Part shown: one piece after another, positions 15,650 to 53,325 of the stretch
Numbering within the stretch: position 1 is the first letter of the stretch
Layout: every line of letters begins with the position of its first letter
Origin: Paraburkholderia acidisoli
GTDB taxonomy: Bacteria > Pseudomonadota > Gammaproteobacteria > Burkholderiales > Burkholderiaceae
Reading direction: 5' to 3'
DNA: 64,000 nucleotides
Assembly: GCF_009789675.1 (NCBI RefSeq)
Contig: NZ_CP046913.1
Span: 1,054,001-1,118,000 of the forward strand
Program-made: the position numbers and the translations under genes
Notes under the pieces: model-generated
Seen by the model: the letters and a program-made list of their open reading frames with translations, nothing else
Databases searched by the model: none
Told to the model about the DNA's origin: nothing

Positions 15650-15682
15650 TGGTCGTTACGTGGCCGTTACGTGGCCGTTACG
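15650..15682. repeat. 11-bp tandem repeat (3 units) after the epimerase gene
   Basis: TGGTCGTTACG, TGGCCGTTACG and TGGCCGTTACG in direct succession, with more diverged units to the left. On the minus strand the unit contains GCGTAACGGCC, close to GCGTGACGGCG at the stop codon of the epimerase, which ends 17 bp away. Confidence 0.8.
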
Positions 15683-15699
15683 CGGTCTTCATGCCGCCG

Positions 15700-16623
15700 T
15701 CACGCAGCCAGCGTCTTGACGCCGATACGCAGCGTCGCCGTTTCCGTGTTACCGGGGGCCAGCCAGCGCAGGCCGAGCCCGTTGTGGATCGCGTCGGGCA
15801 GGCCGAGCCACGGTTCGACGCAGTAGAAGTCGGAGTCGGGCGCTTCGGTCCATGTGGTGACGGCGTACCAGGGCAGTGAATCGGCGCAATTCAAATCGAT
15901 CGTGATCTCGCGGCCGAGGCCCGGGGCGTGCAGGCGCACCGGCGCGGGCGAGGTCGACCGCAGCACGTGGAAGCGGTCGATGATGCTGGCGTCGTCGAGA
16001 CGATATTCGGGCGCGCCGGGCTCGGGCGTGCTGATCGAGCCGTCGGGCAACTGGTAGCGGCGCTCCGAGGGCGGCAGTTCGAGCGTGGTTTGCGCGCGCT
16101 GCGCGTGCGGCAGGGCGAAGTAGAAGTGATGGCCCGCGTACCACGGCATCGGCTCGGTGCCCGTGTTGGTTGCGCTGAGCGTGACTTCGAGCGTGTGTTC
16201 GTCGATGAGGCGGTAGGCGGCTTCGAAGCGGAACGCAAACGGATAACCGACGCGCGTGGCCTCGGTATCGACCAGCGTCATGCGCAGGCCGTGGCCGTCG
16301 GCGTCGGGTTGCGCCGCGAAGGGCAAATCGCGCGCGAAGCCATGCATCGGCAGATCGCGCACCACGCCGTTGGCGTCGCGCCAGCGGCCGATCTTGCCAT
16401 CGACGAAATGGCGGCCGAGAAACGGAAAGAGCAGCGGATTGCCGCCGCGCACGCGGGCGGGCTGCGCCCAGTTCGCGTTCTCGGGCCACACGATCACGGG
16501 CTGGCCGTCGAGTTGCCAGGAGAGCAGGCGGCCGCCCGCCCACGGCGCGATGCGCAGCGTGGAAGCGCCGTGAGTGAGCGTGAGAATGTCCTGCTGCGGT
16601 TGAGCGTTCATGGGTGAGGTCAT
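15700..16623 (-). CDS. Aldose 1-epimerase family protein
   Basis: 307 residues from ATG 16623 (ATG 16611 also possible; neither has a clear ribosome-binding site). An in-frame extension to 16824 is discarded as non-family sequence. The galactose-mutarotase fold is recognised from WAGGRLLSW, GGNPLLFPFLGRH, the catalytic His in WYAGHHFYFAL and the Glu region FYCVEPWLGLPDAI. The enzyme interconverts alpha and beta anomers of a hexose or hexose phosphate in the cytosol. Substrate not predictable. No sugar genes lie next to it. Confidence 0.85.
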   Translation of the reverse strand: MTSPMNAQPQQDILTLTHGASTLRIAPWAGGRLLSWQLDGQPVIVWPENANWAQPARVRGGNPLLFPFLGRHFVDGKIGRWRDANGVVRDLPMHGFARDLPFAAQPDADGHGLRMTLVDTEATRVGYPFAFRFEAAYRLIDEHTLEVTLSATNTGTEPMPWYAGHHFYFALPHAQRAQTTLELPPSERRYQLPDGSISTPEPGAPEYRLDDASIIDRFHVLRSTSPAPVRLHAPGLGREITIDLNCADSLPWYAVTTWTEAPDSDFYCVEPWLGLPDAIHNGLGLRWLAPGNTETATLRIGVKTLAA

Positions 16624-16728
16624 GTGCGCGTTGCGTGTCGATGGAAGGACGGCCGGGAGCGGCGGCCGGGCTTGCGGATTGTGCGCTGCTTTCCGATGCG
16701 TGAAAACCCTTCGTCGGGAAACCGTGGG

Positions 16729-16757
16729 TTGGCTTGTCGGGGAACGGTCAGGATAAT
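16729..16757 (+). promoter_or_regulatory. Promoter of the 28-residue membrane peptide
   Basis: TTGGCT (16729-16734), 17-bp spacer and GATAAT (16752-16757), about 48 bp before the start codon at 16806. Confidence 0.5.
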
Positions 16758-18113: not shown

Positions 18114-18190
18114 GCGACAGTAGCTCAGCTGGATAGAGCATCGGCCTTCTAAGCCGAGGGTCGGGGGTTCGAGCCCCTCCTGTCGCGCCA
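18114..18190 (+). tRNA. tRNA-Arg (TCT)
   Basis: 77 bases, acceptor stem GCGACAG/CTGTCGC, anticodon TCT at 18148-18150 in loop CTTCTAA, GTTCGAGCC T-arm and encoded CCA. A perfect TATAAT at 18044-18049 is the likely -10 box. The 3' 50 bases are duplicated at 33520-33569: an integrative element sits directly after the gene, which stays functional. Confidence 0.97.
18141..18190 (+). other. attL: 50-bp repeat in tRNA-Arg 3' end
   Basis: Bases 18141-18190 (anticodon stem to CCA) are identical to 33520-33569. The sequences diverge immediately on both sides, which defines the element borders. Confidence 0.93.
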
Positions 18191-18199
18191 ATAAAATCA

Positions 18200-18237
18200 A
18201 AGGGTTACGCGATATTTTGCGTAGCCCTTAGTTTTTT
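18200..18237 (+). terminator. Element-borne replacement terminator for tRNA-Arg
   Basis: AAGGGTTACGC (18200-18210) and GCGTAGCCCTT (18219-18229) form an 11-bp stem with one G-T pair, followed by six T. It lies 10 bp after the tRNA, inside the element, and restores termination after the original terminator was moved to 33581. Confidence 0.75.
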
Positions 18238-18245
18238 CGTACGTC

Positions 18246-18264
18246 GTGTAGGTGTTGTGTAGGT
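18246..18264 (+). promoter_or_regulatory. Candidate integrase arm-type sites, left end
   Basis: Two direct copies of GTGTAGGT at 18246-18253 and 18257-18264, 11 bp apart (one helical turn). The same motif recurs at the right end near the integrase start. Confidence 0.55.
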
Positions 18265-18299
18265 ATTTTCGTGCAGCAGTGCATCGGTGCGAGCACAAA

Positions 18300-18716
18300 T
18301 TAATATTCATCTGCCGCGATCACATACATACGATCGGGACGGCACCGACTCCAGATGAGATCGTTTGGAGCATCGCCAACATGGTGCATACCATCTAGCG
18401 CGAGCGTTTCATCAAGAAACTCCTTGAGTTTGAGTCCTGAGGCCGATACTCGCACCACATTGTGATCCGGATACACAATCTGCAACCCTTCGACCTTCGC
18501 CCAGCTCCGTATGTGGCTAATCCAGCGGCGTCCTGTAAGCGTCGGGAGAAGTCCATGACGCGGCATGTGTTTGATCATTGCTGCGAATTCGTCATCATCG
18601 CCTGCTTCAAGCCATGCTTCGCTGAACGTCATTGCAGCTCCGTGGGCAAATTCTATAAATCTTAATATACCTGGTAATTGGAATTTGCTAAGCGTCGCGT
18701 TGAAGGTCACCTGCAT
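18300..18716 (-). CDS. Hypothetical protein of the element (138 aa)
   Basis: Open from ATG 18716 (MQVTFNATLSKFQLPGIL) to the stop at 18300; the frame continues upstream to an ATG at 19109 (269 residues in all), but the added part is basic, low in structure and has no ribosome-binding site. The shorter form has a compact mixed alpha/beta pattern with FLDETLALDGMHHVGDAP near the end. No family is recognised. It is next to attL, a typical place for accessory genes. Confidence 0.45.
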   Translation of the reverse strand: MQVTFNATLSKFQLPGILRFIEFAHGAAMTFSEAWLEAGDDDEFAAMIKHMPRHGLLPTLTGRRWISHIRSWAKVEGLQIVYPDHNVVRVSASGLKLKEFLDETLALDGMHHVGDAPNDLIWSRCRPDRMYVIAADEY

Positions 18717-19285
18717 AGGAGAGACCACGCCAGTGCGGTGGTGATGGCAGATGCGTCGCTCGCGCACCTCATGCTGGTTCTGAGGAAGCAGAGAAGCCTT
18801 GTGACGCTCTTGGCGGCGTGGTCGCGCTCGGGCACCCATAGCGGCCGTGATCTGCGATCCCATTCTCGCGATTTTGACTCGGAACTTTTCCTGCAGCGTT
18901 CGTATGAAAATCACGCCGATAAGGCTCGTGGCGGGCGTTGTCAGTACGGTGTTACTCTGTTCACACAGGGATTCATCGATTTGTCGACGTGGCACCATAT
19001 GCTGCTTGCGTTCGATGTAATCAACGCTTTTATCCGTCTGCCTGTCCACTCCAGTATCTTTTCGCGATGGCGCAAGCGTTACCGTATCCGATGCCGTCGA
19101 GGCAAGCATTAGAGGAGCGCTCGGTGTCTAATTTTGCGAGAAGAGTGCCGATTGAATCGAAGTCTTGAGTGCGGCTTGGCGCTGCGAGTCTTTTGCTCGG
19201 TAGCGCTCGGCGATCAGGAAAAGGAAAAGCCCGCATTTCGCGGGCTGACAAACATGATCGCAACGCAAATTCGATTTCTATGCGT
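18717..19285. other. Element segment without a firm gene
   Basis: About 570 bases between the attL-proximal gene and the helicase. Minus-strand frames are open over 18717-19109 (possible N-terminal extension of the previous gene) and plus-strand frames overlap them. Neither has a ribosome-binding site. An imperfect repeat CCCGCATTTCGCGGG near 19230 (arms CCCGC/GCGGG) may be a terminator of the helicase operon on the minus strand. Confidence 0.4.
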
Positions 19286-20374
19286 CTATTGCGGAAGGCT
19301 CCAGTAGAAAACGTTACCGTGTCCTCGCCTGCTCTTCACGCGCAGCGCGTCGGCGGCACGACGCAACGTACGAGCGGAGATTCCTTGTGCCTTTGCTTCA
19401 AGCGCAACCGTAGTAGCCTGGACGGGAGAGCTCAAGATTTCGCGCAGGAACTCCATCGCAGTTTCTTTCGCATTCAACTCGTCTTTGTCGCCTTCTGCAG
19501 GCTCGCTCAAGAGCTCAGTTGCTGCTCCTTCGACTTTTTCACCCCAAACGACAACGGAGGCGAGCAGACCGGCCTGCGGTTCAATTTGTTCCAGGTGATA
19601 TTCAAATCCACCGTCGTCAGGGCCAATGTTGGATTTCGAGCGGGCAAAAATCCGGCGATCACTGCCATCGGCGCTCTTCACCTTGGCAGCAACAAGCACT
19701 ACGCGAGCGACGGCGGCGAATGCAATTGAGCCGATGACCCGCTGCGTCGGATCAACACCTTGACCTCCTTTCGAGAAATGCGTGATACCAATGAGCGCGG
19801 CATTCATATCCGCAGCGAGGTTAACAAGTGGTTGAAGGGCGCGGCGCGTCTCGGTGTTTTTGTGCGAGTCGCCAGTAACTGCCGACGAGATCGGATCGAC
19901 GATGATGAGGCGGACGTCGCCCAGTTGCTCGCATTCCTTCGACAATGCGGCGGTGTCGCGCGCCGGATCGAACGATTGAAATTCGCCGTTGATATTCTTC
20001 CCGGAAACGAAGTAGACCTTGTCTCGCTTTGCGCCCGCAGCCATCAAGCGCGGCAAAAGCGTATCGCCCGGATCATCCTCGCCGCTCCAGATCACGACGG
20101 AGCCTGCGGTACAGTTAGAGCCGTCGGGCCAACGTCCGCCGCGCGTGACAATCGCTGCGAGGCTCATCGCAAGGGTCGTCTTTCCCTGACCCGGTGCGCC
20201 TGCCAGAAGATGCAGCTTTCCGAGTGCAAGCCATTCATTCCAGAGCCAATCAACAGGCTGCGGTTCGAGGTTGGCAGCATTTACAAGAACAATGCCGTCG
20301 CGAACTTCCTCGGCCTTCACGTAGCGTTCCGCGTTTTCGACGACGGTGCGCATGAGTTCCGTTTCCTCGTTCAC
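19286..20374 (-). CDS. RepA-like AAA ATPase / replicative helicase
   Basis: 362 residues from a GTG start whose GTGA overlaps the primase stop. Walker A is GAPGQGKT (59-66), Walker B LIIVD (156-160), and THFSKGGQG and RSKSNIG blocks follow, as in the AAA_25/RSF1010 RepA hexameric helicases. The last 60 residues (TTVALEAKAQGISARTLRR...) look like a winged-helix DNA-binding region. It should unwind the element's origin together with the adjacent primase. Similar helicase/primase pairs are the core of satellite phages and mobilizable plasmids. Confidence 0.85.
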   Translation of the reverse strand: MNEETELMRTVVENAERYVKAEEVRDGIVLVNAANLEPQPVDWLWNEWLALGKLHLLAGAPGQGKTTLAMSLAAIVTRGGRWPDGSNCTAGSVVIWSGEDDPGDTLLPRLMAAGAKRDKVYFVSGKNINGEFQSFDPARDTAALSKECEQLGDVRLIIVDPISSAVTGDSHKNTETRRALQPLVNLAADMNAALIGITHFSKGGQGVDPTQRVIGSIAFAAVARVVLVAAKVKSADGSDRRIFARSKSNIGPDDGGFEYHLEQIEPQAGLLASVVVWGEKVEGAATELLSEPAEGDKDELNAKETAMEFLREILSSPVQATTVALEAKAQGISARTLRRAADALRVKSRRGHGNVFYWSLPQ

Positions 20375-21198
20375 GCGGCCTCCTTGAGCAGATCATTCAG
20401 ATCATTTGCGGTTTGCTGCGTCAAAAATACGCCGATCCCGGCTTCATCGAAGTTTTGCGCGCAAGTCAGTGCGGCATTCTGGCCTGCTGCGTCGTTATCA
20501 ACCGCGACGTACAGCGTTTCCAAGCCGAACAGAGGGGGCAGTGCAGCGAGATTGCCTGCATCGATGCAGGCCCAAACCGGGGAATGAGCCCACGCCAGGC
20601 TGAGCGCGGTTTCAATACCTTCGGCGATGCCGAGTCCGTTCGTAACTGCGTCATCGGGCCACAAGCGGATCACGCCGCCTTTTTTGCGATGCCCCCCCAG
20701 CAACATGCGAGGAGCGTCAATGGCCGCTTTGTGGCCGTTCGATTGAATCCACGTGCGATGCAAGCTCAGCGCGCTGCCAGTCAGAGCGTCCGTGACGAGC
20801 GCAATCATACAAGGGCCGATGTGACCGCTGGGGTGCTTCAACGACGGGTGCCAGCGCAAATCGCCATCGTTCGGAGGAATGCGGCAGCGACGAGCCGTCA
20901 AATATGCGCTCGCTTCGCCCGAAAGCGGCTCACACTTCGCCCAGAGCGCTTGGCCGTATTCAGAGAGATACTCGTGCTTCGTCGGCGCATTCGGTTTCGC
21001 ACGCGGTTGGGAATTCAACATCGGGCGAGAACCGAAGCCCGGATGGAAGTGCTCCGTGTAAGCGCAGCGGAAACAATGGCATACACCGTTGCCGTTTGCT
21101 TCGATCGTAAGGCCCAAATTACGATCACGATCTCCGCGACCGCACGCGGGGCACATGATGCGATGGTTGCCCATTGCGTATTGGTTCCAATCAATCAT
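20371..21198 (-). CDS. DNA primase with zinc finger and Toprim domain
   Basis: 275 residues from ATG 21198 (TAATG overlap with the HTH gene); the longer upstream frame is rejected. A zinc finger is formed by CPAC (16-19) and CHCFRC (C42, C45). The Toprim domain shows the acidic EGIE (193-196) and VDNDAAGQ (DND 234-236). This is the primase arrangement of P4-type elements, here as a separate protein rather than fused to the helicase. It would lay down primers at the element's origin. The stop overlaps the helicase start, so both are translationally coupled. Confidence 0.86.
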   Translation of the reverse strand: MIDWNQYAMGNHRIMCPACGRGDRDRNLGLTIEANGNGVCHCFRCAYTEHFHPGFGSRPMLNSQPRAKPNAPTKHEYLSEYGQALWAKCEPLSGEASAYLTARRCRIPPNDGDLRWHPSLKHPSGHIGPCMIALVTDALTGSALSLHRTWIQSNGHKAAIDAPRMLLGGHRKKGGVIRLWPDDAVTNGLGIAEGIETALSLAWAHSPVWACIDAGNLAALPPLFGLETLYVAVDNDAAGQNAALTCAQNFDEAGIGVFLTQQTANDLNDLLKEAA

Positions 21199-21413
21199 TA
21201 CTGCGCCTTCGCCAAGAGCTCGATCGAATTCACCGGCCACATCAAACGGCCATTCGGAAGCTTGACCGGGCGCAGGCTGTAGTACGTGCCAGTCTGGCAA
21301 TAACGCTTGCGAATCGACTGCGGGCGAAGGGTAAGGTGCGATGCCAGTTCTTCCGTAGAGAGGTACTGGCGAGTCTGATCGATCGCGTGAGAGATATTTG
21401 CTGCTTTTTCCAT
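21198..21413 (-). CDS. Small HTH DNA-binding protein (AlpA/excisionase-like)
   Basis: 70 residues from ATG 21413. The sequence RQYLSTEELASHLTLRPQ followed by SIRKRYCQTG is a winged helix-turn-helix of the MerR/AlpA/excisionase kind, with a beta-wing end (LPNGRLMWPV). It begins the coupled operon HTH-primase-helicase (TAATG and GTGA overlaps). Likely roles are control of excision or of replication genes, or recognition of the decamer array that lies 78 bp upstream of its start. The latter is inference. Confidence 0.7.
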   Translation of the reverse strand: MEKAANISHAIDQTRQYLSTEELASHLTLRPQSIRKRYCQTGTYYSLRPVKLPNGRLMWPVNSIELLAKAQ

Positions 21414-21490
21414 GAGGATTGCGCCGCATCGAACGGCGTTTTGTTGATTCGATGCGAATCCTCGATCCATTGCTGGATTTCTCCGATAGT

Positions 21491-21600
21491 AACGGCCACT
21501 AGCCGCCACTAGCCGCCACTAGCCGCCACTAGCCGCCACTAGCCGCCACTAGCCGCCACTAGCCGCCACTAGCCGCCACTAGCCGCCGCTAGCCGCCGTT
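21491..21600. repeat. Decamer tandem array, 8 perfect plus 3 variant units
   Basis: AGCCGCCACT is repeated without spacing at 21501-21580 (eight identical copies), flanked by variants at 21491 (AACGGCCACT), 21581 and 21591. The period equals one helical turn. The array sits directly upstream of the HTH-primase-helicase operon, as iterons of a replication origin would. On the minus strand the unit TGGCGGCTAG also resembles the stop region (TGGCGGCATAG) of the gene ending at 21623. Confidence 0.95.
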
Positions 21601-21622
21601 GCCGTAGCAGACTCCGGTGGGC

Positions 21623-22432
21623 CTATGCCGCCATTCGCTTACGCAGTGCATTCTTCGTAAAGAACTTGATGCCGGCGTCGACTTGGTATTTGATTCCTTC
21701 TGCGTCGACGTAGCCAAGGAGCGGTGCGGGAGGTTCGCCCATCTCCGCCAGTCGAACGAGTTCCGGCCATACCGACAGGTAGTTCGTCGGATCGGTTGCG
21801 CGACTCACGGCGACCTCGATCACGTGATCAAGCGCATGGCGCCGGTTTCGTAATTGATGTGATTTTGAAGGCGCTAGGGCAGTTTTTTTAGGCGGTGAAA
21901 ACGAGTAGGCGATCCGTGGCTGGTGTTTTGTAAGCCAGTGGTTGAGATCATCCCAGTAGGCTTCTTTACTGCGCCACGAAGGTGAATCACCCGCGGTTTG
22001 CACGAACCTCACGCGCTCTCCCCATGAATAAACGGGAAGCTCCGATCGCTCAGCTGCGTCACATAGCATCTGGACAACAACGGCAAGACGCTCCCCGCTG
22101 CTGGCTAAGAGGCGAGCCGCCTCCGCCAGCGTATAGCGCCCGGCGGCAGTCTTTTCGCTCGCGAAACGCTTCTTGAGAATTTCAAATTTAAAGATTTCGT
22201 CACAGCGTTTTGCGGCCTCCAGTCGATACTGCGGGGCGAGCTCGTTCCAGAGCGTATCCCACGGCCCCATATCTAAACATTCATCGAATCGCAGCTTTAT
22301 CCACGAAGCCAGATCGGACGGCAATTCTGAGGCTGCTTTGTCCAAATGCTGTTGGACGGCAAAAGCAAGACCGAAATCTCCAGGGAGCTTGGGGTCGTCG
22401 TCTTCGATAAGGTTTAAGCGTTCATCTATCAT
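21623..22432 (-). CDS. Hypothetical element protein (269 aa)
   Basis: ATG at 22432 (a start 12 codons upstream is less likely). The product is soluble and acidic at the start (MIDERLNLIEDDDPKLPGDF), rich in helices and Trp, with a C-terminal block LVRLAEMGEPPAPLLGYVD that I have seen in proteins of similar integrative elements in Burkholderiales. No domain of known function is visible. Its position before the decamer array and replication operon suggests a role in replication or its control. Confidence 0.7.
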   Translation of the reverse strand: MIDERLNLIEDDDPKLPGDFGLAFAVQQHLDKAASELPSDLASWIKLRFDECLDMGPWDTLWNELAPQYRLEAAKRCDEIFKFEILKKRFASEKTAAGRYTLAEAARLLASSGERLAVVVQMLCDAAERSELPVYSWGERVRFVQTAGDSPSWRSKEAYWDDLNHWLTKHQPRIAYSFSPPKKTALAPSKSHQLRNRRHALDHVIEVAVSRATDPTNYLSVWPELVRLAEMGEPPAPLLGYVDAEGIKYQVDAGIKFFTKNALRKRMAA

Positions 22433-22536
22433 CGCTATCCTGAAAAGAGCCGATACCAACAACCACAACGATCCAAAGATGCGTCGTGGCTTCTCGCGCT
22501 GCTTTTTGACAGTGGAGGTGTATCGTGTTGCCTATG

Positions 22537-22580
22537 TTGTCCACCTTGTCCACGTTCAAAACGATGGACAAGGTGGACAA
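22537..22580. repeat. 16-bp perfect inverted repeat made of TTGTCCACC units
   Basis: TTGTCCACCTTGTCCA at 22537-22552 and its exact complement at 22565-22580, with a 12-base centre. Each arm contains a direct repeat of TTGTCCA(CC), so there are four copies in a 2+2 palindrome. The nonamer matches 7 of 9 bases of the DnaA box TTATCCACA. It lies about 100 bp upstream of the gene ending at 21623 and may be its operator or an origin element. Confidence 0.85.
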
Positions 22581-22928
22581 GTTGAGCGTCTTGAATCCCG
22601 AGGAGCGCTACACGGCGTTGAAACAAAGCAAGCACACATGCGCTTCCAACTTTGAAGCGCACAACTTGCCTTGATTTTCAACCACTAGCGACGACCTAGT
22701 CTCCAAATCCGCCTTGTTCCAATTTGCTTTGCGACGCAATTTCGCGACCGCGGAGAAATTGTTATCGAAGGGGATTTGTAAGTTTTGGGTGCGCAAACTT
22801 TTGAGCAGGGAACGGGCGTGAAGGTCCGCGTCGAACACGAGACGCTTAAGGACGCAGGCAGCGTAAGAGGCGTAACTTCGCCGTTCGAGCTGACACGGAT
22901 ACTCGTCGGCGAAGATTGAGGTTGGGAT

Positions 22929-23129
22929 TTGATTTGTCCCGCTTGGGATGAATTCCACTGGTACGTCGTGGAAGACCGAAATGCGCGCAAAACGTCCGCT
23001 CGACTCTTCGAGCAAGTCCATGGTTGGAAAACATTCGGCGCGATCATGACGGAATCATATTACGTCGAGAGGCGTGCGCGGAAGTGGATTGCCATTGATC
23101 CCCTTGACGCAGGATCTGCCTTTTGGTGA
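22929..23129 (+). CDS. Possible small protein (66 aa)
   Basis: TTG start at 22929; the product starts ICPAWDEFHWYVVED and ends RKWIAIDPLDAGSAFW, rich in aromatic residues and plausible as a folded small phage-type protein. A short in-frame ORF (22785-22919, ending FELTRILVGED) lies just upstream on the same strand, and a competing 137-residue minus-strand frame covers 22608-23021. I cannot decide firmly which is used. No family is recognised. Confidence 0.35.
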   Translation: MICPAWDEFHWYVVEDRNARKTSARLFEQVHGWKTFGAIMTESYYVERRARKWIAIDPLDAGSAFW

Positions 23130-23200
23130 TTCAGCCTAGCTAAAAGTAGGCGCAGAGGAAGATTATCGAAAATAACCAAAATATTTGAAATTAAACACCA

Positions 23201-23500
23201 CTAATCTAGTTCCATGGAGAATTTGATTAGTGTTGCCCGTTGTTCGGAGCTGAGTTGATGAAATCTCAACAGTAAAGCGGCCTCATCGTCAGCCACCGCG
23301 TAGAAGTAAGTTGCAGGCACGTTTAAGGCAGCTGCAATCCGCTTGATGGTTCCAAAATCTGGGACGTGTTTCCCCCGCTCATACTGATTCATTCTCGCGC
23401 TCGCCGACATCTCGTCGATTCCGGCCAAGACTCCGAGCTTTTCTTGCGAGAGACCATTCCGGATGCGTACCTCTCGAAGTCGCCGCGCCACCACGTCCAT
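23201..23500 (-). CDS. XRE/CI-like HTH repressor
   Basis: 99 residues. Residues 5-65 form a classical HTH_XRE domain (VARRLREVRIRNGLSQEKLGVLAGI ... YERGKHVPDFGTIKRIAAALNVP), followed by a short acidic helix. Such proteins hold satellite or prophage genes silent. Two 15-bp palindromes 21 and 54 bp upstream of the start are the likely operators. It is divergent from the ParB-like gene. Confidence 0.85.
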   Translation of the reverse strand: MDVVARRLREVRIRNGLSQEKLGVLAGIDEMSASARMNQYERGKHVPDFGTIKRIAAALNVPATYFYAVADDEAALLLRFHQLSSEQRATLIKFSMELD

Positions 23501-23520
23501 TCTCAGCCTTCCCTCAAAGG

Positions 23521-23568
23521 CTAAGATATTCTTAGGGTAGCTTTCGCCTTACACTAAGAGTTCCTTAG
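23521..23568. promoter_or_regulatory. Paired repressor operators
   Basis: CTAAGATATTCTTAG (23521-23535, perfect palindrome) and CTAAGAGTTCCTTAG (23554-23568, one mismatch). The centres are 33 bp apart, about three helical turns. They lie between the divergent repressor and ParB-like genes and are the obvious targets of the XRE repressor. Confidence 0.72.
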
Positions 23569-23717
23569 TTTTTGCCGCGTTGGCAATTGCTGCCTCGAAA
23601 TTCGAATCAAGGTTGCGAGCTAGCTCGGTTGGCTCGATGTAGTTTGGGACGGAATAGGTTAGGTCGGCCTGATCGGATGGCAGGTATGGGGAAATCTACA
23701 ATCAACGGAGAGAATGG

Positions 23718-24455
23718 ATGGCCAAACCAAACGTGAAAGAACTTGAGGCAGGGCTGACACAGCATCGCTCGCCAAAGGTAATGGAGGAACTGATCGCTTC
23801 CACGGTATTGGGTCGATTTGCGGAGCAGCTATCAGCTCCGAACCAGTTGTTGCCACTCAACCGAATCAGGGATTCTCCGTATTTGCGACATGTCATTGAC
23901 GAGACTCACGTTGATGCACTCGCAGAAAGTTTCGCCACTATTGGAATCCTTGATCCGATTATCGTTCGTGAAGTGGAAGGCGACTACTTTGAGCTAATCG
24001 CGGGCCACTACAGAGTCAGAGCGGCAGCTAAGATCGGTTGGGAAAGCATTGTCGCGCGCGTTCGTACGCTAGATAATCGAGAAGCCGCACGAATGGTGGT
24101 CACGAGTAACACACAGCGACGTTACATCACCGATTTTGAGCGCTTCCATCTCTTACCACTCGCGCTTCGTGAAAATTGTGCGTATCGGTCAAAGATAGAA
24201 CTGGCACATCTTCTCGGGTGTAATCATATATCTGCTTTTTATATAGATGCATACTCTGAGCTCCCCTCGGCGGCGATAAAGATTTTGGAGGCGAAGCCAG
24301 ATTTAATCGACGCACCTACTGCAATTGCGCTGAAAAGATTTGTACGGAAACATCCCGATCTGGTTGTCCAAGTCATTCAATTGATCGCGGACGAAGCATT
24401 GGGGCAGGACGCAGCAGAAGAGTGGGTCAAGAATGCATTGAATTCCTCTGTCTAA
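23718..24455 (+). CDS. ParB/RepB N-terminal domain protein
   Basis: 245 residues. Residues 45-115 are a ParB/sulfiredoxin-like domain: LNRIRDSP, LAESFATIGILDPIIVR and the box AGHYRVRAAAKIGW, corresponding to GxRRxxA of CTPase ParB. A helical region and a HTH-like segment (SKIELAHLLGCNHISAFYIDAY) follow. There is no ParA partner, as with many phage or island ParB-like proteins, which act as nucleases, DNA-binding regulators or copy-stability factors. Its divergent placement from the repressor suggests it is expressed when repression is lifted. Confidence 0.78.
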   Translation: MAKPNVKELEAGLTQHRSPKVMEELIASTVLGRFAEQLSAPNQLLPLNRIRDSPYLRHVIDETHVDALAESFATIGILDPIIVREVEGDYFELIAGHYRVRAAAKIGWESIVARVRTLDNREAARMVVTSNTQRRYITDFERFHLLPLALRENCAYRSKIELAHLLGCNHISAFYIDAYSELPSAAIKILEAKPDLIDAPTAIALKRFVRKHPDLVVQVIQLIADEALGQDAAEEWVKNALNSSV

Positions 24456-24869
24456 GGAGCTATGCTGATTTTTCATCTATCAATCAGTAGTTAGGCGACG
24501 GAAAGTGATATTTATATCGAGTCAGTGATTCTTTTTTCTGACTCGATAAATTAAAAGAATTTATATCAAATTTACCGAATTTGAGTAATCAACGCATATA
24601 AACGTAAGAGTGTTCGTTTTAAACTATCTATGCTTTCCGTTGCATAGCGATAATTCGAAAAATTGCCTTGCGTCAGTAAATTTCAGGGTTATATTTTGTG
24701 ACGTGGAGACGTAAAGTCAAAAAAAGGGGTAATCTTTGAATTGAGAGTCTACGTAAGAAGGAGCTATTTTATTTCAACAGGAGGCTCGGCTTTCCCGGGA
24801 GCTGCGAGTTGGTTTGCTTGAAATGATCAATCAAGCTTCGTGTGGCCGCTCCCCCAGTCGAATTAAATT
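24456..24869. other. AT-rich intergenic region of the element
   Basis: About 410 bases with very low G+C, runs of A and T and no open frame with start signals. The region separates the ParB-like gene from the convergent membrane protein. An inverted repeat around 24519-24549 (TCGAGTCAG and CTGACTCGA, with TATAAAT-like flanks) forms a 9-bp stem over a 13-base loop and may terminate the ParB transcript. Confidence 0.5.
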
Positions 24870-25769
24870 TTACGCTTCCCTACAAGACGCGGCCTCGTCA
24901 GCCGTAAATTCAATTTCATGTATTTTGAGAAGGCCACTTGCTATTGCTGGTTCGAAGCTTTCAAGCAGGCGCGTAAAGCCGCTGGAAGTTCGAGTTTCCT
25001 CGCCTGGAAGCTTCATCAACACGAGATCGAGATGTGCCTCGACACGTTTGACAGTTCGATAATAATTAATTTTTGAAAGCATCACATATAAGCGATCTCG
25101 AAATGATGGCGGCGTAAACGTTCCCGGCCGAATTTCTACAAATGTTTCGTGTTCAGATAATTTAATGTAAGCATCAAATACAGGTTGCATGCTGGATATC
25201 GGATCAATGCCATGAAAGTGAGAAACCAGCTTTGCTTCAACGATAACATTTGAAGGATTTAACAAGCGCTGCTGCAAATATTTTGTGAATGCCAACTCTT
25301 CTGCTTTCTTCCAATTCGTCGTTACCCTGAGTGGAACATTTGGCGTAACAGTACTTGCCGCGTCCGCCGACTGTTTCTCTTGAACGTCCCTCTCACTTGC
25401 CTTCTGAACACTTGGCGTGGCGTGGTAATCACCATACACGTTTGTATGGCTCTGGTTCTGTGACTGTGTGTTTGAAATTGTGATGAGTTGCGAAAGAAGG
25501 TGGTTGTTTTGTTTTTCTAATTTCTCAACCTCTTTTTCCTTCTTTTTGACCTCCCGTGAGATTGAGATTACTTTTCCTACAGAGAAATTATCAAACGACT
25601 CGGCCAAGACAAGGATAAGCAATAAACAGAGTAAAGTAATGAGCCCGCTGCTGATTTCGCCTCTAGGTTCAATGGCGATGTAGCGGTAGGTAATCATTGA
25701 GACGAGTAAAATGCAGAATGCCGCAATAAGAATTCGAACAAACCAGTTTGGTTTTTTTTGTTCTTCCAT
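24870..25769 (-). CDS. Membrane-anchored protein with possible PD-(D/E)XK-like domain
   Basis: 299 residues, strongly AT-rich for this genome. Two membrane helices (about 11-32 and 40-57) are followed by a Lys/Glu coiled coil (72-95), a Gln/Asn/Ser linker (100-145) and a soluble domain (150-299). In that domain a helix with EE (158-159), the strand pair VFDAYIKLSEHETFVEIR (D199, E212, R214), a long helix and a strand (AHLDLVLM) follow the order of the restriction-endonuclease fold, with Arg in place of the catalytic Lys. No close family is recognised. Cargo position and composition suggest a defence or sensing function; this is inference. Confidence 0.6.
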   Translation of the reverse strand: MEEQKKPNWFVRILIAAFCILLVSMITYRYIAIEPRGEISSGLITLLCLLLILVLAESFDNFSVGKVISISREVKKKEKEVEKLEKQNNHLLSQLITISNTQSQNQSHTNVYGDYHATPSVQKASERDVQEKQSADAASTVTPNVPLRVTTNWKKAEELAFTKYLQQRLLNPSNVIVEAKLVSHFHGIDPISSMQPVFDAYIKLSEHETFVEIRPGTFTPPSFRDRLYVMLSKINYYRTVKRVEAHLDLVLMKLPGEETRTSSGFTRLLESFEPAIASGLLKIHEIEFTADEAASCREA

Positions 25770-26138: not shown

Positions 26139-26175
26139 TTGCGTTTCCCCTATGTTTCGAATATATTGGAAATAT
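26139..26175 (+). promoter_or_regulatory. arsR promoter and operator overlapping the start codon
   Basis: TTGCGT (26139-26144), 17-bp spacer and TATATT (26162-26167). The dyad ATGTTTC (26152-26158) and GAAATAT (26169-26175) covers the -10 box and the first bases of arsR, and is the likely ArsR operator. Expected transcription start is at or within a few bases of the ATG at 26174. Confidence 0.6.
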
Positions 26176-26497: not shown

Positions 26498-26509
26498 CGG
26501 AGAAGAGCC

Positions 26510-42855: not shown

Positions 42856-45480
42856 ATGAAAGCCGCCGAAATCCGCGAGAAATTTCTCAAATTCTTCGAG
42901 TCGAAGGGCCACACGATCGTGCGCTCGTCGAGTCTCGTGCCGGGCAACGACCCCACGTTGCTGTTCACGAACTCGGGCATGGTGCAATTCAAGGACGTGT
43001 TCCTCGGCACCGAAAAGCGCCCGTACTCGCGCGCCACGACCGCGCAGCGCAGCGTGCGCGCGGGCGGCAAGCACAACGACCTCGAAAACGTCGGCTATAC
43101 CGCGCGTCACCACACGTTCTTCGAGATGCTCGGCAACTTCTCGTTCGGCGACTACTTCAAGCGCGACGCGATCCACTATTGCTGGGAACTGCTGACCAAG
43201 GTCTACGGCCTGCCGGCGGACAAGCTCACGGTCACCGTCTACCAGGAAGACGACGAAGCGTTCGCCATCTGGGAAAACGAAATCGGCGTGCCGAAAGAGC
43301 GCATCATCCGCATCGGCGACAACAAGGGTGCGCGTTACGCCTCGGACAACTTCTGGACCATGGGCGACACCGGCCCGTGCGGCCCGTGCTCGGAAGTGTT
43401 CTACGACCACGGCCCGGAAGTCTGGGGTGGGCCGCCGGGATCGCCTGAAGAAGACGGCGACCGCTTCATCGAGATCTGGAATCTCGTGTTCATGCAGTTC
43501 AATCGCGATCCGCAAGGCAACATGACGAAGTTGCCCAAGCAGAGCGTCGACACCGGCATGGGCCTCGAGCGTCTCGCCGCCGTGCTCCAGCACGTGCACA
43601 GCAACTACGAGATCGACCTGTTCCAGAACCTGATCAAGGCCGCCGCGCGCGAAACCGGCATCGCGGATCTGGAAAACAACTCGCTGAAGGTCATTGCCGA
43701 CCACATCCGCGCGTGCTCGTTCCTGATCGTCGACGGCGTGATTCCGGGCAACGAAGGCCGCGGCTACGTGCTGCGCCGCATCGTGCGCCGCGCGATCCGC
43801 CACGGCTACAAGCTCGGCAAGAAGGGTTCGTTCTTCCACAAGCTGGTCGCGGACCTCGTTGCCGAAATGGGCGCCGCGTACCCCGAACTCGCCGAGGCAC
43901 AACAGCGCGTGACCGACGTGCTGCGCCAGGAAGAAGAGCGCTTCTTCGAGACCATCGAGCACGGCATGTCGATTCTCGAAGCCGAACTCGCGGCGCTCGA
44001 CGCCAAGGGCGCGAAAACGCTCGACGGCGAACTCGCGTTCAAGCTGCACGACACCTACGGCTTCCCGCTCGACCTCACGGCCGACGTTTGCCGCGAGCGC
44101 AACATGACCGTGGACGAAGCGGCCTTTGACGAAGCCATGGCGCGTCAGCGCGACCAGGCGCGCGCGGCCGGCAAGTTCAAGATGGCGCAGGGCCTCGAGT
44201 ACGCGGGCGCGAAGACCACGTTCCACGGCTACGAAGGCATCGCCTTCGACGACGCGAAGATCGTCGCGCTTTATGTCGATGGCGCTTCGGTGAACGAGGC
44301 GCAGGCGGGCCAGGACGCCGTGGTCGTGCTCGACAACACGCCGTTCTACGCGGAATCGGGCGGCCAGGTCGGCGACCAGGGCGTGATCGCGAACGCGAGC
44401 GTGCGCTTCGCGGTGCTCGACACGCTCAAGGTGCAGGCCGACGTCACGGGCCATCACGGCACGGTCGAGCAGGGCACGCTCAAGGTCGGCGACGTGGTGA
44501 AGGCGGAAATCGACACGGTGCGCCGTGCCCGCACGGCACGCAACCACTCGGCCACGCACTTGATGCACAAGGCGCTGCGCGAAGTGCTGGGCGCGCACGT
44601 GCAGCAGAAGGGCTCGCTCGTCGACGCCGACAAAACGCGTTTCGACTTCGCGCACAACGCGCCCATGACCGACGAGCAGATTCGTCGCGTGGAAGAAATC
44701 GTCAACGCGGAAGTGCTCGCCAACGCGCCCGGCATCGTGCGCGTGATGTCGTACGACGAAGCGGTCAAGGGCGGCGCGATGGCGCTGTTCGGCGAGAAGT
44801 ACGGCGACGAAGTGCGCGTGCTCGATCTCGGCTTCTCGCGCGAACTCTGCGGCGGCACGCACGTGCAGCGCAGCGGCGACATCGGCCTGTTCAAGATCGT
44901 GATGGAAGGCGGCGTCGCGGCCGGCATCCGCCGCGTGGAAGCCATCACGGGCGATAACGCCGTGCGCTTCGTGCAGGACCTCGACGCGCGCATCAACGCA
45001 GCGGCGGCGGCGCTCAAGGCGCAGCCTTCGGAGCTCACGCAGCGCATCGCGCAGGTGCAGGACCAGGTGAAGTCGCTGGAAAAGGAACTGGGCGCGCTCA
45101 AGTCGAAGCTGGCGTCGAGCCAGGGCGACGAACTCGCGGGCCAGGCCATCGACATCAACGGCGTGCACGTGCTGGCGGCCACGCTCGAAGGCGCCGATTC
45201 GAAGACGCTGCGCGAAACCGTCGACAAGCTGAAAGACAAGCTCAAGAGCGCGGCCATCGTGCTGGCGGCCGTCGAAGGCGGCAAGGTCAGCCTGATCGCG
45301 GGCGTGACGGCGGAAGCGAGCAAGAAGGTCAAGGCGGGCGAGCTGGTCAACTTCGTCGCGCAGCAAGTGGGCGGCAAGGGCGGTGGCCGTCCGGACATGG
45401 CGCAGGCGGGCGGCACGGAACCGGCGAATCTGCCGGCCGCGCTCGCGGGCGTGAAGGGCTGGGTCGAAGCGAAGCTGTAA
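42856..45480 (+). CDS. alaS: Alanyl-tRNA synthetase
   Basis: 874 residues from ATG 42856 ([20 protein letters not shown]). Class II catalytic core ([33 protein letters not shown]), editing domain with zinc-binding H564-x3-H568 ([10 protein letters not shown]) and C665/H669 (CGGTH), and the C-Ala oligomerisation/tRNA-elbow domain ending [15 protein letters not shown]. All are intact. Pairs with the tRNA-Ala at 8163, whose G3:T70 it recognises. Followed by its own terminator. Confidence 0.98.
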
Positions 45481-45521
45481 GCGCTTGCCGGTCACGTGCC
45501 GCCGGGTTGATTCCGGCGATG

Positions 45522-45553
45522 AAAAAGGGCTGCCTCCGCGGGCAGCCCTTTTT
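45522..45553. terminator. alaS terminator (bidirectional)
   Basis: AAAAAGGGCTGCC and GGCAGCCCTTTTT with a 6-base loop, 42 bp after the alaS stop. A-run on the left permits use by the convergent LysR gene. Confidence 0.9.
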
Positions 45554-45573
45554 GTTTGGACGCGGCTCCTCGA

Positions 45574-45612
45574 GCGCACTTAGACCGCGCACTTAGACCG
45601 CGCACTTAGACC
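45574..45612. repeat. 13-bp tandem repeat (3 units) containing the LysR stop codon
   Basis: GCGCACTTAGACC is repeated three times without change (45574, 45587, 45600). On the minus strand the unit reads GGTCTAAGTGCGC; the TAA of the right-hand unit is the stop codon of the LysR gene. Confidence 0.93.
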
Positions 45613-46526
45613 GTATGGGTCGCCTCGATCCTGGCGGACGACACGGCGCTTTCGCGTTGCGCCTGCTCCAGCAACGCCTGCTTCAACGCGTCGAGCGCGG
45701 GCGAGAAATGACCGCGTCGCCATACGAGCAGCGTATCGATCCGGCCGAGCTTGCCGAGCGAATGAATGGCGATGTCGTCGCTGCTGCGTTGCAGGTCGAG
45801 CACCGAGCGCGGCGCGACGGCCACGCCCGCGCCCGCCGCCACGCAGGCGACGATCGCGTGGTACGAGCCGAGTTCGAGCACACGCGTCGGGCGAATACCG
45901 TGTTCGAGATACCAGCGCTCCACATAGCTGCGGTAAGCGCAGCCGCGCTCGAACGCCACGAGCGTGGACAGCGCGACGTCGCCGGGCTGGCGGATCGGCC
46001 GGTGGCCGCGCGGCGTGAGCATCACCAGTTCTTCGCGGAACACCGGCACATGCTCGAACACGCCATCGTCCGGCAAACCGTCGAGCGGCGTGGCGATCAG
46101 TGCGGCGTCCACCTCGAACTCGCGCAGCCGCGCGATCAGGCCGCCCGTGGTGCCGGTTTCCAGTTCGAGCGTGACGTCGGGCCACGCCTGGTGATAGCGC
46201 GCGAGCAGGCCGGGCAGACGGCTCGCCGCGGCGCTTTCCATCGTGCCGAGACGCAGCCGCCCCGTGGGCCGGCCCGCCTTGATCGCGTGGCGCGCTTCGT
46301 CGGCGAGCGCGAGCAGGCGTTCGGCGTAGGGCAGCAGCGTTTCGCCCGCGGGCGTGAGCACGAGGCGGCGGCCGTCGCGCGTGAACAGCGGCGTGCCCAG
46401 CTGTTCTTCGAGCTGCTTGATGCGCGTGGTCACGTTCGACTGCACGCGGTTGAGCTTGGCGGCGGCGCGCGTGACCCCGTTTTCGCGGACGACCGCCCGG
46501 AAGATCGCCAGCGCGGCGAGATCCAT
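45606..46526 (-). CDS. LysR family transcriptional regulator
   Basis: 306 residues from ATG 46526 with AAGGAGAG upstream; the frame continues to 46565 but lacks a site there. N-terminal HTH (DLAALAIFRAVVRENGVTRAA ... QSNVTTRIKQLEEQLGTPLF in parts) and a periplasmic-binding-protein-like effector domain. Divergent from an MFS transporter with a perfect dyad (46543-46564) between them, so it probably controls that transporter. Its stop codon is inside a tandem repeat. Confidence 0.93.
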   Translation of the reverse strand: MDLAALAIFRAVVRENGVTRAAAKLNRVQSNVTTRIKQLEEQLGTPLFTRDGRRLVLTPAGETLLPYAERLLALADEARHAIKAGRPTGRLRLGTMESAAASRLPGLLARYHQAWPDVTLELETGTTGGLIARLREFEVDAALIATPLDGLPDDGVFEHVPVFREELVMLTPRGHRPIRQPGDVALSTLVAFERGCAYRSYVERWYLEHGIRPTRVLELGSYHAIVACVAAGAGVAVAPRSVLDLQRSSDDIAIHSLGKLGRIDTLLVWRRGHFSPALDALKQALLEQAQRESAVSSARIEATHTV

Positions 46527-51637: not shown

Positions 51638-52491
51638 GCGCGCCGATGACGACCGCGTCGACGAACCAGGCGAACCTCGCGCTGTGCCTGATCGGCATCG
51701 AAAAGCGCTTCGGCGCGACGGCCGTGCTGCGCGGCGTCGATCTCGAGGTGCGCGCGGGCGAGCGCCACGCGCTGATCGGCCCGAACGGCGCGGGCAAGTC
51801 GACGCTCTTCAGCCTCATCGCGGGCGAGCGGCGGCCAAGCGCGGGCCGCGTCGTGCTCGACGGCGCCGACGTCACGCGCCTCTCGCCCGCCGCGCGCAGC
51901 CGTCGCGGCCTCGCGCGCAGCTTCCAGACCACCAGCGTGTTCGCGCGTTTGAGCGTGATCGAAAATTTACGCTGCGCCGTGCTCGCCTCGCTGCATGGCG
52001 GCGCGGGTTTTGCCGCGCGCTGGCTCGGTTCGCGGCGCGTGGAAGCGCGCGCGCACGAGGTGCTCGACGCCATCGGTCTCGCCGGCGCCGCGCAGCGCGA
52101 AGCCGGCACGCTCGGTTACGCCGGGCAGCGCGCGCTCGATCTCGGCCTCGCGCTCGCGGGCGGCGCGCGCACGTTGCTGCTCGACGAGCCCACGGCGGGC
52201 ATGAACCGCGCCGAGGCCGCCCGCGCCATCGACCTGATCCGCGCGACCACGGCGGGCAAGACGCTGCTTTTGATCGAGCACGACATGGACGCGGTGTTCG
52301 GTCTCGCCGATCGGGTCTCGGTGCTGGTGCAGGGCCGCGTGATCGCCACCGGCACGCCCGCCGAAATTCGCGCCGATGCCGCCGTGCGCGAGGCGTATTT
52401 AGGCAACTTCGCGGGCAATTTCGCAGGCAACTTCGCGGGCAATATCGGGCACAACATCGAGCGCGACGGCGCAGGAGGCTTCACGCCATGA
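51634..52491 (+). CDS. ABC ATPase (LivG-like) with degenerate signature motif
   Basis: 285 residues. Walker A GPNGAGKST (K55) and Walker B TLLLDEPTAG are normal, and the H-loop is LLIEHDMD. The signature motif, normally LSYGEQ in this family, is LGYAGQ at 160-165: both the Ser and the conserved Gly are changed. The C terminus carries a GNFA repeat (GNFAGNFAGNFAGN) from a 12-bp DNA repeat at about 52399-52446. ATGA overlaps on both sides show tight coupling within the operon. Confidence 0.92.
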   Translation: MSAPMTTASTNQANLALCLIGIEKRFGATAVLRGVDLEVRAGERHALIGPNGAGKSTLFSLIAGERRPSAGRVVLDGADVTRLSPAARSRRGLARSFQTTSVFARLSVIENLRCAVLASLHGGAGFAARWLGSRRVEARAHEVLDAIGLAGAAQREAGTLGYAGQRALDLGLALAGGARTLLLDEPTAGMNRAEAARAIDLIRATTAGKTLLLIEHDMDAVFGLADRVSVLVQGRVIATGTPAEIRADAAVREAYLGNFAGNFAGNFAGNIGHNIERDGAGGFTP

Positions 52492-53189
52492 CCGCGCTGC
52501 TCGAAGTGCGCGATCTGCGCGCGTGGTACGGCGCGAGCCAGGTGCTGCACGGTGTCGACCTGCACGTGCGGGCGGGCGAGGTGGTCGCGCTCGCGGGGCG
52601 CAACGGCTCGGGCCGTTCGACGCTGGCGAAGGCGCTCATGTCGATGGTGCGCGCCGAGGGCGTGCGGCGCTTCGCGGGCGCCGACCTTGCGCCGCTGCGC
52701 ACGTTCGAGATCGCGCGCCGCGGTTTGGGTTACGTGGCCGAGCAGCGCGACGTCTTCCCGACGCTGACCGTCGACGAAAACCTGCGCCTCGGTCTGGCCG
52801 CGTGCGCGGGCCGCTTTTCGATCGACGAGGCGCGCGAGCTGTTTCCCGTGCTCGCCGGGCGCCGCGCCGCGCGCGCCGGTGTGCTGTCCGGCGGCGAGCA
52901 GCAGATGCTCGCGCTGGCGCGGGCGCTGGTGGGCGCGCCCGACCTGCTGATCGTCGATGAACCGACGGAAGGCTTGTCGCAGCAAATGGCCGCGCGCGTG
53001 GGCGACGGTCTGGCGGCGTTGCGTGCCCGCGGCGTCGCGGTGTTGCTGATCGAGCAGCGGCTCGCGCTCGCGCCCGCGCTCGCCGATCGCGTCGCGGTAA
53101 TGGGCCACGGGCGCATCGTGTTCGACGGCACGCCGGGCGCGCTCGCGCAACGCGAGGACGTCGTGCGCGAATGGCTCGGCATCGGTTGA
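52488..53189 (+). CDS. ABC ATPase (LivF-like) with Walker A Lys to Arg change
   Basis: 233 residues. Walker A reads GRNGSGRST: the invariant Lys is Arg43 (codon CGT at 52614-52616). Signature LSGGEQ (133-138) and Walker B LLIVDEPTEG are intact, and the H-loop position is Gln (LLIEQR), as usual for LivF. The normal signature would serve the intact ATP site of the LivG-like partner, whereas its own Walker A would face the partner's degenerate signature. Last gene of the cluster. Confidence 0.92.
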   Translation: MTALLEVRDLRAWYGASQVLHGVDLHVRAGEVVALAGRNGSGRSTLAKALMSMVRAEGVRRFAGADLAPLRTFEIARRGLGYVAEQRDVFPTLTVDENLRLGLAACAGRFSIDEARELFPVLAGRRAARAGVLSGGEQQMLALARALVGAPDLLIVDEPTEGLSQQMAARVGDGLAALRARGVAVLLIEQRLALAPALADRVAVMGHGRIVFDGTPGALAQREDVVREWLGIG

Positions 53190-53237
53190 GCGCGGGTCAC
53201 AGGTTGACCGATGCCGCGCGTGACGGGTGCGTTACGG

Positions 53238-53325
53238 GTGCGTGATTCACGTGCGATCGACGTGTGATTGGCGCGTGATCGACGTGTGATTGGTGCGTGA
53301 TTGTTGCGTGATTGGCGCCTGATCA
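53238..53325. repeat. 11-bp degenerate tandem repeat (8 units) ending in the phosphorylase stop codon
   Basis: Eight consecutive 11-bp units, e.g. GTGCGTGATTG, ACGTGTGATTG, TTGCGTGATTG and finally GCGCCTGATCA at 53315-53325. TCA of the last unit is the stop codon (TGA) of the minus-strand gene. Units keep the core GTGATYG. Confidence 0.9.

Follow-up and report, generated by a model that had tools for sequence, protein, structure and literature searches.

The short tandem arrays found at gene ends of this genome are most probably ordinary intergenic minisatellites of the kind already known from Burkholderiaceae, tolerated after stop codons because duplications that span a stop would be silent at the level of the protein. 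An earlier note on the window, that is, the whole stretch of 64,000 nucleotides that was analyzed, had proposed a special class of arrays seeded at stop codons. This class does not hold up, because there is no strand bias and no peak of duplications at the stop itself.

In the preferred reading, replication slippage or recombination between copies would make short tandem duplications anywhere, and selection would discard those that alter the protein or the start region. A unit spanning the stop, or lying just past it, should leave the protein unchanged, given that the first stop would still end the gene, and the zone in which arrays survive would open roughly one unit before the stop. As gene ends lie close together, many surviving units would include a stop or border on one, and added copies would lengthen the gap.

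Arrays and genes in the window

All five arrays that had been described were recovered by TRF close to where they had been placed (Table 1). The earlier description of them was borne out in part. On the strand read, the stops of a CoA-transferase gene (Pfam PF02515; stop at 41271-41273) and of a gene for a LysR-type regulator (stop at 45606-45608) lie inside their arrays, whereas the Ap4A phosphorylase gene (Pfam PF19327/PF09830; stop at 53323-53325) has a stop that meets its array solely in a degenerate unit at the edge and recurs in none of the others. This last array (53218..53323) has degenerate 11-bp copies with higher-order units of 22/33 bp, and it occupies most of the convergent gap 53190-53322. 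The two remaining arrays begin 17 bp after the aldose-1-epimerase stop (according to our own gene calls) and 25 bp after that of the open frame 21623-22468, for which a Pfam search gave no match. An exact 20-base word comprising two units of the latter array was found at its own locus only in a search of the whole genome. This array is located within an island flanked by tRNA-Arg.

Table 1. Arrays and associated features in the window
Feature	Position	Strand	Copies, identity	Remarks
Degenerate 11-bp array	15618-15655	-		adjoins the next array; together 15618..15682
11-bp array	15649-15682		3.1 copies, 95%	TRF
Aldose 1-epimerase gene	15700..16611	-		Pfam PF01263; exact start uncertain (the longest open frame reaches 16824)
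10-bp array	21495-21597	-	10.3 copies, 98%	TRF
Second 11-bp array, CoA-transferase convergent gap	41046-41096	+	4.7 copies	TRF
11-bp array, CoA-transferase	41141-41281	-	12.9 copies, 85%	TRF
Hairpin terminator	45522..45553	.		A-tract and T-tract on both sides; in the LysR-alaS gap, immediately past the array
13-bp array, LysR-type regulator	45574-45613	-	3.1 copies, 100% (perfect)	TRF
Array row neighbouring the next array	53218-53245			TRF
11-bp array, Ap4A phosphorylase	53264-53323	-	5.5 copies, 77%	TRF; plus 22/33-bp rows

The CoA-transferase array has a higher-order pattern of 33 bp (3 units), and the degeneracy of its copies grows with the distance from the gene. The same convergent gap contains a second array, absent from the earlier note, which starts 15 bp past the stop of a plus-strand serine hydrolase gene at 41030. 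That all five arrays follow minus-strand genes was not confirmed: by our gene calls, the CoA-transferase, LysR and Ap4A phosphorylase arrays sit in convergent gaps and each of them is also located downstream of a plus-strand gene, which is alaS across the gap from the LysR gene. Extension of the arrays only downstream, also claimed, is, by reasoning, close to automatic: since the first in-frame stop ends a gene, copies of a unit with that stop can accumulate only behind it.

Arrays and stop codons across the genome

The genome sample consisted of 78 stretches of 20 kb (1.56 Mb, 20% of the genome), in which the gene calls came from a codon-usage caller built for this analysis and not from a published annotation, so that starts are approximate. 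TRF rows outside the set period and score were dropped, as were arrays not mostly within a gap (53 of 128 at a score of at least 50; one of them, 89% coding, overlaps a called start), gaps between overlapping genes and, for the word profile described below, gaps under 80 bp. At a score of at least 50 and with any unit length, there were 87 intergenic arrays, compared with 13 in Markov-shuffled copies. Stop codons were overlapped by 14 of 75 intergenic arrays, where uniform placement predicts 3.9, and 35 of the 75 began within 30 bp of a stop (11.3 expected under uniform placement). Start codons were overlapped by none of the 75 and, at a score of at least 40, by 2 of 160. The association of arrays with stop codons is not confined to the window, and the enrichment relative to starts and to uniform intergenic positions that the earlier note had anticipated is present in this 20% sample. 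Arrays with longer units (17-60 bp) had no excess of stop overlap (3 vs. 3.8 expected), with 19 of them within 60 bp of a stop (9.9 expected).

The strand bias that had been expected alongside was absent from the same sample: at a score of at least 45, 25 stop-near arrays follow plus-strand genes and 21 follow minus-strand genes (n = 46; 634 and 677 genes sampled, respectively). No clear pattern emerged by replichore either: among the 27 stop-near arrays on contig 1, the plus:minus counts were 4:5 in one half and 10:8 in the other, the halves being defined only by the GC-skew sign change of the sampled stretches.

Seeding at the stop was assessed with a conditional null, in which each array was placed by chance within its own collapsed gap. 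In this genome, stop overlap was then 14 of 60 vs. 7.8 expected (P about 0.01) and 35 arrays began no more than 30 bp from a stop, with 25.6 expected (P about 0.003); for a score of at least 40, the corresponding values were 23 vs. 15.4 and 61 vs. 46.5. At the alaS loci of 54 relatives (26 of 80 loci, L131-L156, which are more distant, were left out) overlap was 10 of 48 vs. 11.2, and in a second set, 40 stretches of relatives, it was 6 of 18 vs. 3.5. The word profile, which records whether a 9-base word recurs, with up to one mismatch, 6-36 bases further on, gave 61 of 3310 words in coding ends, 70 of 1986 for words including the whole stop, 181 of 3972 at 0-21 bp after the stop and 103 of 2890 at 30-80 bp. 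The rate of duplication in the genome sample climbs across the coding end without a peak at the stop, and the by-offset version of the profile had shuffled controls. With no such peak and with the excess shrinking against each array's own gap, seeding fails as a property specific to the stop. In an outgroup sample (10 genomes, 0.4 Mb), the small word profile was 1.6, 1.3, 2.1 and 3.2%, and just 5 intergenic arrays were present, too few to judge how general the 3' preference is.

A mutational process specific to 3' ends, for example slippage resulting from transcription termination or from head-on collisions, could make duplications preferentially at stops, and the excess that is left over in this genome under the conditional null fits such a process, as does the density of array beginnings, which is about twice as high up to 30 bp from the stop as deeper in the gap (the same contrast is seen, less clearly, at the alaS loci of the relatives). 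Moreover, convergent gaps are richest in arrays in all three sets, with arrays per kb of convergent, co-directional and divergent gaps amounting to 0.63/0.29/0.20, 0.92/0.41/0.19 and 0.25/0.18/0.03. However, selection against arrays near starts predicts the same contrast between gap types, and neither the absence of a peak at the stop in the word profile nor the lack of excess at the alaS loci under the conditional null agrees with a preferential origin there, which makes this process an unlikely explanation. Under a pooled-gap null for convergent gaps with terminator-like stretches excluded, stop overlap was 7 vs. 2.8 in this genome and 8 vs. 4.0 at the alaS loci, excesses that count against the reading as ordinary minisatellites. 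Crowding by terminators was rejected as the cause of the stop overlap in convergent gaps, as the exclusion shifts the expectation in this genome merely from 2.5 to 2.8. The residual stop excess in this genome is a weak leftover beside the reading of the arrays as ordinary minisatellites.

Transcript ends and reading frames

The arrays might act at the 3' end of the transcript, as terminators, Rho loading sites or RNA-stabilizing structures. Two of them, at 21.5 and 41.2 kb, do fold better than shuffles (z -5.9 and -2.9), and a simple scan found no terminator-like site beside the CoA-transferase stop, although the same scan missed the terminator between the LysR gene and alaS, so that its negatives are weak. 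In contrast, the stretches at 53.2 and 15.6 kb fold no better than shuffles (z -1.2 and +1.1), and the LysR gene retains a strong hairpin terminator beyond its array, a point on which the earlier note, by which at least three of the genes lack a normal one, was not confirmed. The fold of 45495-45565 has -34.2 kcal/mol (z -4.3), and this terminator is kept in the eight closest of the best 26 of 36 LysR orthologues. The sense strand of a Rho-dependent termination site is rich in C and poor in G. No such bias of C over G was found on the sense strand of stop-near arrays in any of three sets (mean skew -0.063, n = 45; -0.044, n = 27; -0.014, n = 14), which rules out a Rho-like signature of the arrays. 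As the arrays are, in addition, not conserved at the two orthologous ends compared below, a role at the transcript 3' end is very unlikely; nothing speaks for the suggested part in 3' end formation beyond the fact that two of the five arrays fold well.

Another suggested role, stops in several frames, received little support. Units of 10, 11 and 13 bp containing TGA, TAA or TAG do put stops in different frames, and arrays might be kept because stop triplets repeated in units whose length is no multiple of 3 would cover all frames. Among the arrays 0-29 bp after a stop, stop triplets per base are denser on the sense than on the antisense strand (0.034 vs. 0.019 here, 0.041 vs. 0.023 at the alaS loci); the values for array-free flanks are 0.020 vs. 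0.016 and 0.020 vs. 0.013, respectively. Yet a count by array leaves little of the sense excess (9 vs. 4 among 26 arrays in this genome, 7 vs. 6 among 15 at the alaS loci and 1 vs. 1 among the 4 in 20 stretches from the genus), and the Ap4A phosphorylase array does not repeat the stop of its gene. Multiples of three are also not avoided among the units of stop-overlapping arrays in the genome sample: they are about equally common at stops (5 of 14) and elsewhere in gaps (16 of 40), and at a score of at least 40 in 7 of 23 and 39 of 99 arrays. Selection for stops in all frames is thus the least probable of the explanations considered, highly improbable in our view. The mild excess of stop triplets on the sense strand is a leftover that is not predicted under neutrality alone, except where decayed copies that once spanned the stop add to it. 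Arrays lying mostly in coding DNA favour units that are multiples of three (44 of 53), a preference that fits protein change as the filter.

Turnover between species and known repeat systems

The comparison between species covered the CoA-transferase and LysR-alaS loci, two of the five, at a score of at least 50, with weaker arrays counted as absent. Including the present genome, 4 of 31 had arrays in the CoA-transferase gap, the units being 10, 11, 12 and 14 bp long, and arrays were present in the LysR-alaS gap of 5 of 36 genomes. The CoA-transferase gap is 240 bp long here; among the nine closest orthologues (among the best 26 of 44), it is -4 to 26 bp in six and 57, 61 and 106 bp in the other three, the 106-bp gap having an array of its own. 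A search for orthologues of the Ap4A phosphorylase found none. Gaps with arrays exceed the median length of array-free gaps in 9 of 11 convergent cases (4 gap families) and in 15 of 18 co-directional cases (8 gap families), families with fewer than five array-free members having been dropped. The units vary from array to array across the arrays listed and are locus-specific, not one dispersed motif. At the two loci compared, orthologous ends in other species lack an array or have other units, so that the arrays turn over rapidly in evolution and are presumably mutable.

Repeats of this kind have been described in the same family. The tandem arrays of B. pseudomallei are mostly intergenic, and their commonest units are 6-9 bp (PMC1853098), compared with 10-14 bp here, where the TRF score of 50 disfavours short units in few copies. 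Burkholderia SSR/VNTR loci have units of up to 14 nt and variable copy numbers (PMC1853098, PMC1574311), and resemble the present arrays, as far as those accounts describe them, in bacterial family, tandem form and unit range. In passaged B. mallei, 24 of 33 intergenic indels were in repeats with 7-14 nt units, and the overall distribution of the repeats was called apparently random, with 23.9% intergenic (PMC1574311). Mrazek and colleagues, as cited in PMC4679880, reported long simple sequence repeats with units of 5-11 nt, four Burkholderia genomes being among the ten richest, and a preference for multiples of three in coding regions; their survey, in that account, comprised units of 1-11 nt only, so that the 13-bp LysR array falls outside. 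A gap lengthened by direct repeats after a stop is also known from M. tuberculosis rnc-fpg1 (MIRU-VNTR), which measures 279-358 bp in one lineage but between 1 and a few tens of bp in relatives, and in which the repeats start 40 bp after the stop codon (PMC2734929). Unlike the arrays described here, its units are longer, the repeats reach the start of the next gene and a correlation between length and expression is reported (PMC2734929). Some sets of the TAACTGA repeats of Beggiatoaceae overlap the stop of the upstream gene, and forward repeats give stops in all frames, but they are described as one fixed 7-nt motif used genome-wide, mainly just before start codons (PMC4679880), whereas each array here has its own unit.

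It is unlikely that, in this Paraburkholderia lineage, stop-spanning duplication is a main source of new intergenic DNA, with arrays grown from the end of a gene pushing apart genes that once nearly touched, and proceeds faster at stops through a process tied to the ends of transcripts or of translation. What the results provide is a simple null for repeats at gene ends: arrays are expected there without any function, since stop-spanning duplications would be silent. They also indicate how the birth of repeats can enlarge the spacers between bacterial genes, the units at one and the same place differing from species to species.

Arrays at gene ends in the window and in the genome

All five tandem arrays that the earlier note had placed at gene ends were recovered by TRF, and the stop codons of the adjoining genes were borne out by strand reads. 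With a score of at least 50 and periods of 8–16, TRF found six intergenic arrays in the window, that is, these five and one more (see table), and each of the six starts less than 30 bp from some stop codon. The description of the arrays as following minus-strand genes captures half of the situation, because three of the five lie in convergent gaps.

Features of the window discussed in the text
Feature	Position	Remarks
Complete rRNA operon	6399-11709	plus strand; 16S, tRNA-Ile, tRNA-Ala, 23S, 5S
Array, aldose 1-epimerase gene	15649-15682	
tRNA-Arg	18114-18190	
Likely integrated island	18114-33566	tRNA-Arg and 3' copy, lower GC, gene content
Array, open frame without Pfam match	21495-21597	
Repeat of the tRNA-Arg 3' part	33527-33566	exact, at least 40 bases
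Sixth array	41046-41096	15 bp past plus-strand stop; TRF
Array, CoA-transferase gene	41141-41281	
Open frame antisense to alaS	42817-45579	920 codons; no Pfam match
Array, LysR-type regulator gene	45574-45613	
Array, Ap4A phosphorylase gene	53264-53323	

The genome (7.95 Mb in five contigs, with the window at 1054001-1118000 of contig 1) encodes an alanyl-tRNA synthetase in the window that shares 96% identity with its counterpart in Burkholderia sp. Ax-1719 and 93–94% with those of several Paraburkholderia species, which makes a Paraburkholderia the most likely source. The open frame antisense to this gene has a counterpart without internal stop in 34 of the 58 genomes listed, including this one, and probably results from high GC. 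The array at 21.5 kb is located within the likely island, in which the GC content between the tRNA-Arg and its 3' copy is lower (0.44–0.63 in 2-kb steps) and which carries Toprim, AAA, ParB and SBF-transporter genes. In the CoA-transferase array, a higher-order 33-bp pattern (3 x 11) is present and the regularity of the copies falls with distance from the gene, as expected from repeated block duplications. Compared to shuffled sequences, folding is better for two of the arrays (21.5 and 41.2 kb) and no better for two other stretches (53.2 and 15.6 kb). The LysR gene has a hairpin past its array, which is also found in the eight closest among the best 26 orthologues listed.

For the genome as a whole, 78 stretches of 20 kb outside the window were sampled, in which 1367 genes were called by a codon-usage caller and 128 arrays (period 8–16, score at least 50) were found by TRF, 75 in gaps and 53 mostly coding. 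Fourteen of the 75 gap arrays overlap a stop codon, compared to 3.9 expected for uniform placement in gaps, and 35 start less than 30 bp from a stop (11.3 expected). None overlaps a start codon, an overlap that the null forbids, and three begin less than 30 bp from one (9.5 expected). At a score of at least 40, 23 of 160 gap arrays overlap a stop (8.0 expected), 61 start within 30 bp of one (24.5 expected), and two overlap a start. These counts indicate that the stop association noticed in the window is real in this genome. For units of 17–60 bp, the sample contained no excess of stop overlaps (3 vs. 3.8 expected). At a score of at least 50, each kb of gap contained 0.30 arrays in this genome and 0.39 in the alaS loci, which come from 54 relatives; 40 stretches from relatives in the genus had 0.15, and 10 further genomes from the phylum had 0.10 (five arrays). 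In intergenic DNA of this genome and its relatives, unit lengths peak at 10–14 bp in three sets (the mode is 12, equalled by 11 in one of them); in shuffled DNA they are 13–29 bp, a contrast to which cut-off effects contribute.

Proposed seeding at the stop codon

Uniform placement ignores that arrays are insertions into gaps that were once shorter. Each array was shrunk to about one unit and placed randomly in its own shrunken gap. Under this gap-conditional null, stop overlaps (score at least 50) numbered 14 vs. 7.8 expected in the genome sample (P about 0.01), 10 vs. 11.2 in the alaS loci, which represent one region across 54 species and are mutually non-independent, and 6 vs. 3.5 in the 40 stretches (P about 0.07). 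In the same order, the values were 23 vs. 15.4, 14 vs. 14.1, and 7 vs. 8.2 at a score of at least 40, and 35 vs. 25.6, 23 vs. 25.3, and 10 vs. 8.2 for starts within 30 bp of a stop (score at least 50). Thus, some weak excess remains, confined to this genome. For convergent gaps only, a pooled-gap null yielded larger excesses of stop overlaps in the three sets (7 vs. 2.5, 8 vs. 3.7, and 2 vs. 0.5), also with terminator-like stretches left out (7 vs. 2.8, 8 vs. 4.0, and 2 vs. 0.5).

In the genome sample, array starts form a plateau and not a point: their density is high from a little inside the stop up to about 30 bp past it, and is roughly halved at distances above 45 bp. The fall with distance is less clear for the alaS loci. 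For all gene ends adjoining a gap of at least 80 bp, we also scored 9-base words that were repeated 6–36 bases on with at most one mismatch. In the genome sample, such recurrence was found for 1.8% of words at coding ends, 3.5% of words containing the whole stop, 4.6% at 0–21 bp, and 3.6% at 30–80 bp. The corresponding values in two sets of relatives were 2.3, 2.9, 4.3, and 4.6%, and 1.1, 1.6, 3.4, and 2.8%. With the downstream DNA shuffled, recurrence was mostly 0.5–1.5%, and below 0.5% for stop-containing words in the genome sample, so that, above chance, stop words are about level with words just downstream in this genome. The duplication rate climbs where the protein is no longer altered, without a peak at the stop itself, a profile that does not support seeding of arrays specifically at stop codons.

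Strand, frame and composition

The suggested restriction to one strand was not found in the genome sample: 25 arrays follow plus-strand genes and 21 minus-strand genes (score at least 45), for 634 and 677 genes, respectively. Unit lengths are divisible by three in 5 of the 14 arrays that overlap a stop, in 5 of 21 at 0–29 bp, and in 16 of 40 other gap arrays, vs. 44 of 53 coding arrays. Stop triplets in arrays 0–29 bp past, but not touching, the stop occur at 0.034 per base on the sense strand vs. 0.019 on the antisense strand (array-free flanks, 0.020 and 0.016), with more on the sense strand in 9 of 26 arrays and more on the antisense strand in 4. The alaS loci gave 0.041 vs. 0.023 (7 and 6 of 15 arrays), and 20 stretches from the genus had no sense excess (1 and 1 of 4). 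The mild excess could reflect old stop-spanning copies with a decayed first unit. A Rho-like C-richness was looked for in the arrays and was absent.

Gap lengths and class of repeats

The CoA-transferase gap spans 240 bp in the window. For the nine closest among the best 26 of 44 orthologues, it measures −4, 15, 15, 16, 22, and 26 bp in six and 57, 61, and 106 bp in the other three; the 106-bp gap holds an array with a different 12-bp unit. The comparison of gaps with arrays was confined to gap families that include five or more array-free members and covered 35 such gaps, two of them from the window. Arrays were present in at least one genome in 15 of 40 families. Gaps with arrays exceeded the median of array-free members in 9 of 11 convergent cases (4 families), 15 of 18 co-directional cases (8 families), and 4 of 6 divergent cases (3 families); one exception is the LysR-alaS gap in the window (125 bp vs. 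a median of 137). The median excesses (56.5 and 71 bp) are greater than the length added by repeats (30 and 26.5 bp), which would fit a contribution of decayed repeats or other insertions. One co-directional gap, downstream of a gene that we take, from reading its protein, to be gamma-glutamyltransferase-like, contains arrays in seven species (loci L088, L091, L098, L099, L102, L123, and L124; about 7600-7830). On visual inspection, some units appear related and others do not, which makes it probable that new arrays have arisen and that old ones have drifted.

In the parts of the literature covered, tandem repeats of B. pseudomallei are described as mostly intergenic (PMC1853098), those of B. 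mallei as shifting in copy number on passage (PMC1574311), four Burkholderia genomes as within the top ten for long simple sequence repeats of 5–11 nt (PMC4679880), and a mycobacterial gap as enlarged by repeats (PMC2734929). Stop-spanning arrays as a named class are absent from the titles among the literature matches listed, which is not proof of absence. The arrays resemble those of B. pseudomallei and B. mallei in being tandem, and those of B. pseudomallei also in being mostly intergenic (PMC1853098, PMC1574311, as far as these sources were covered). The arrays are probably intergenic minisatellites, the location of which would be set by where duplications are silent.
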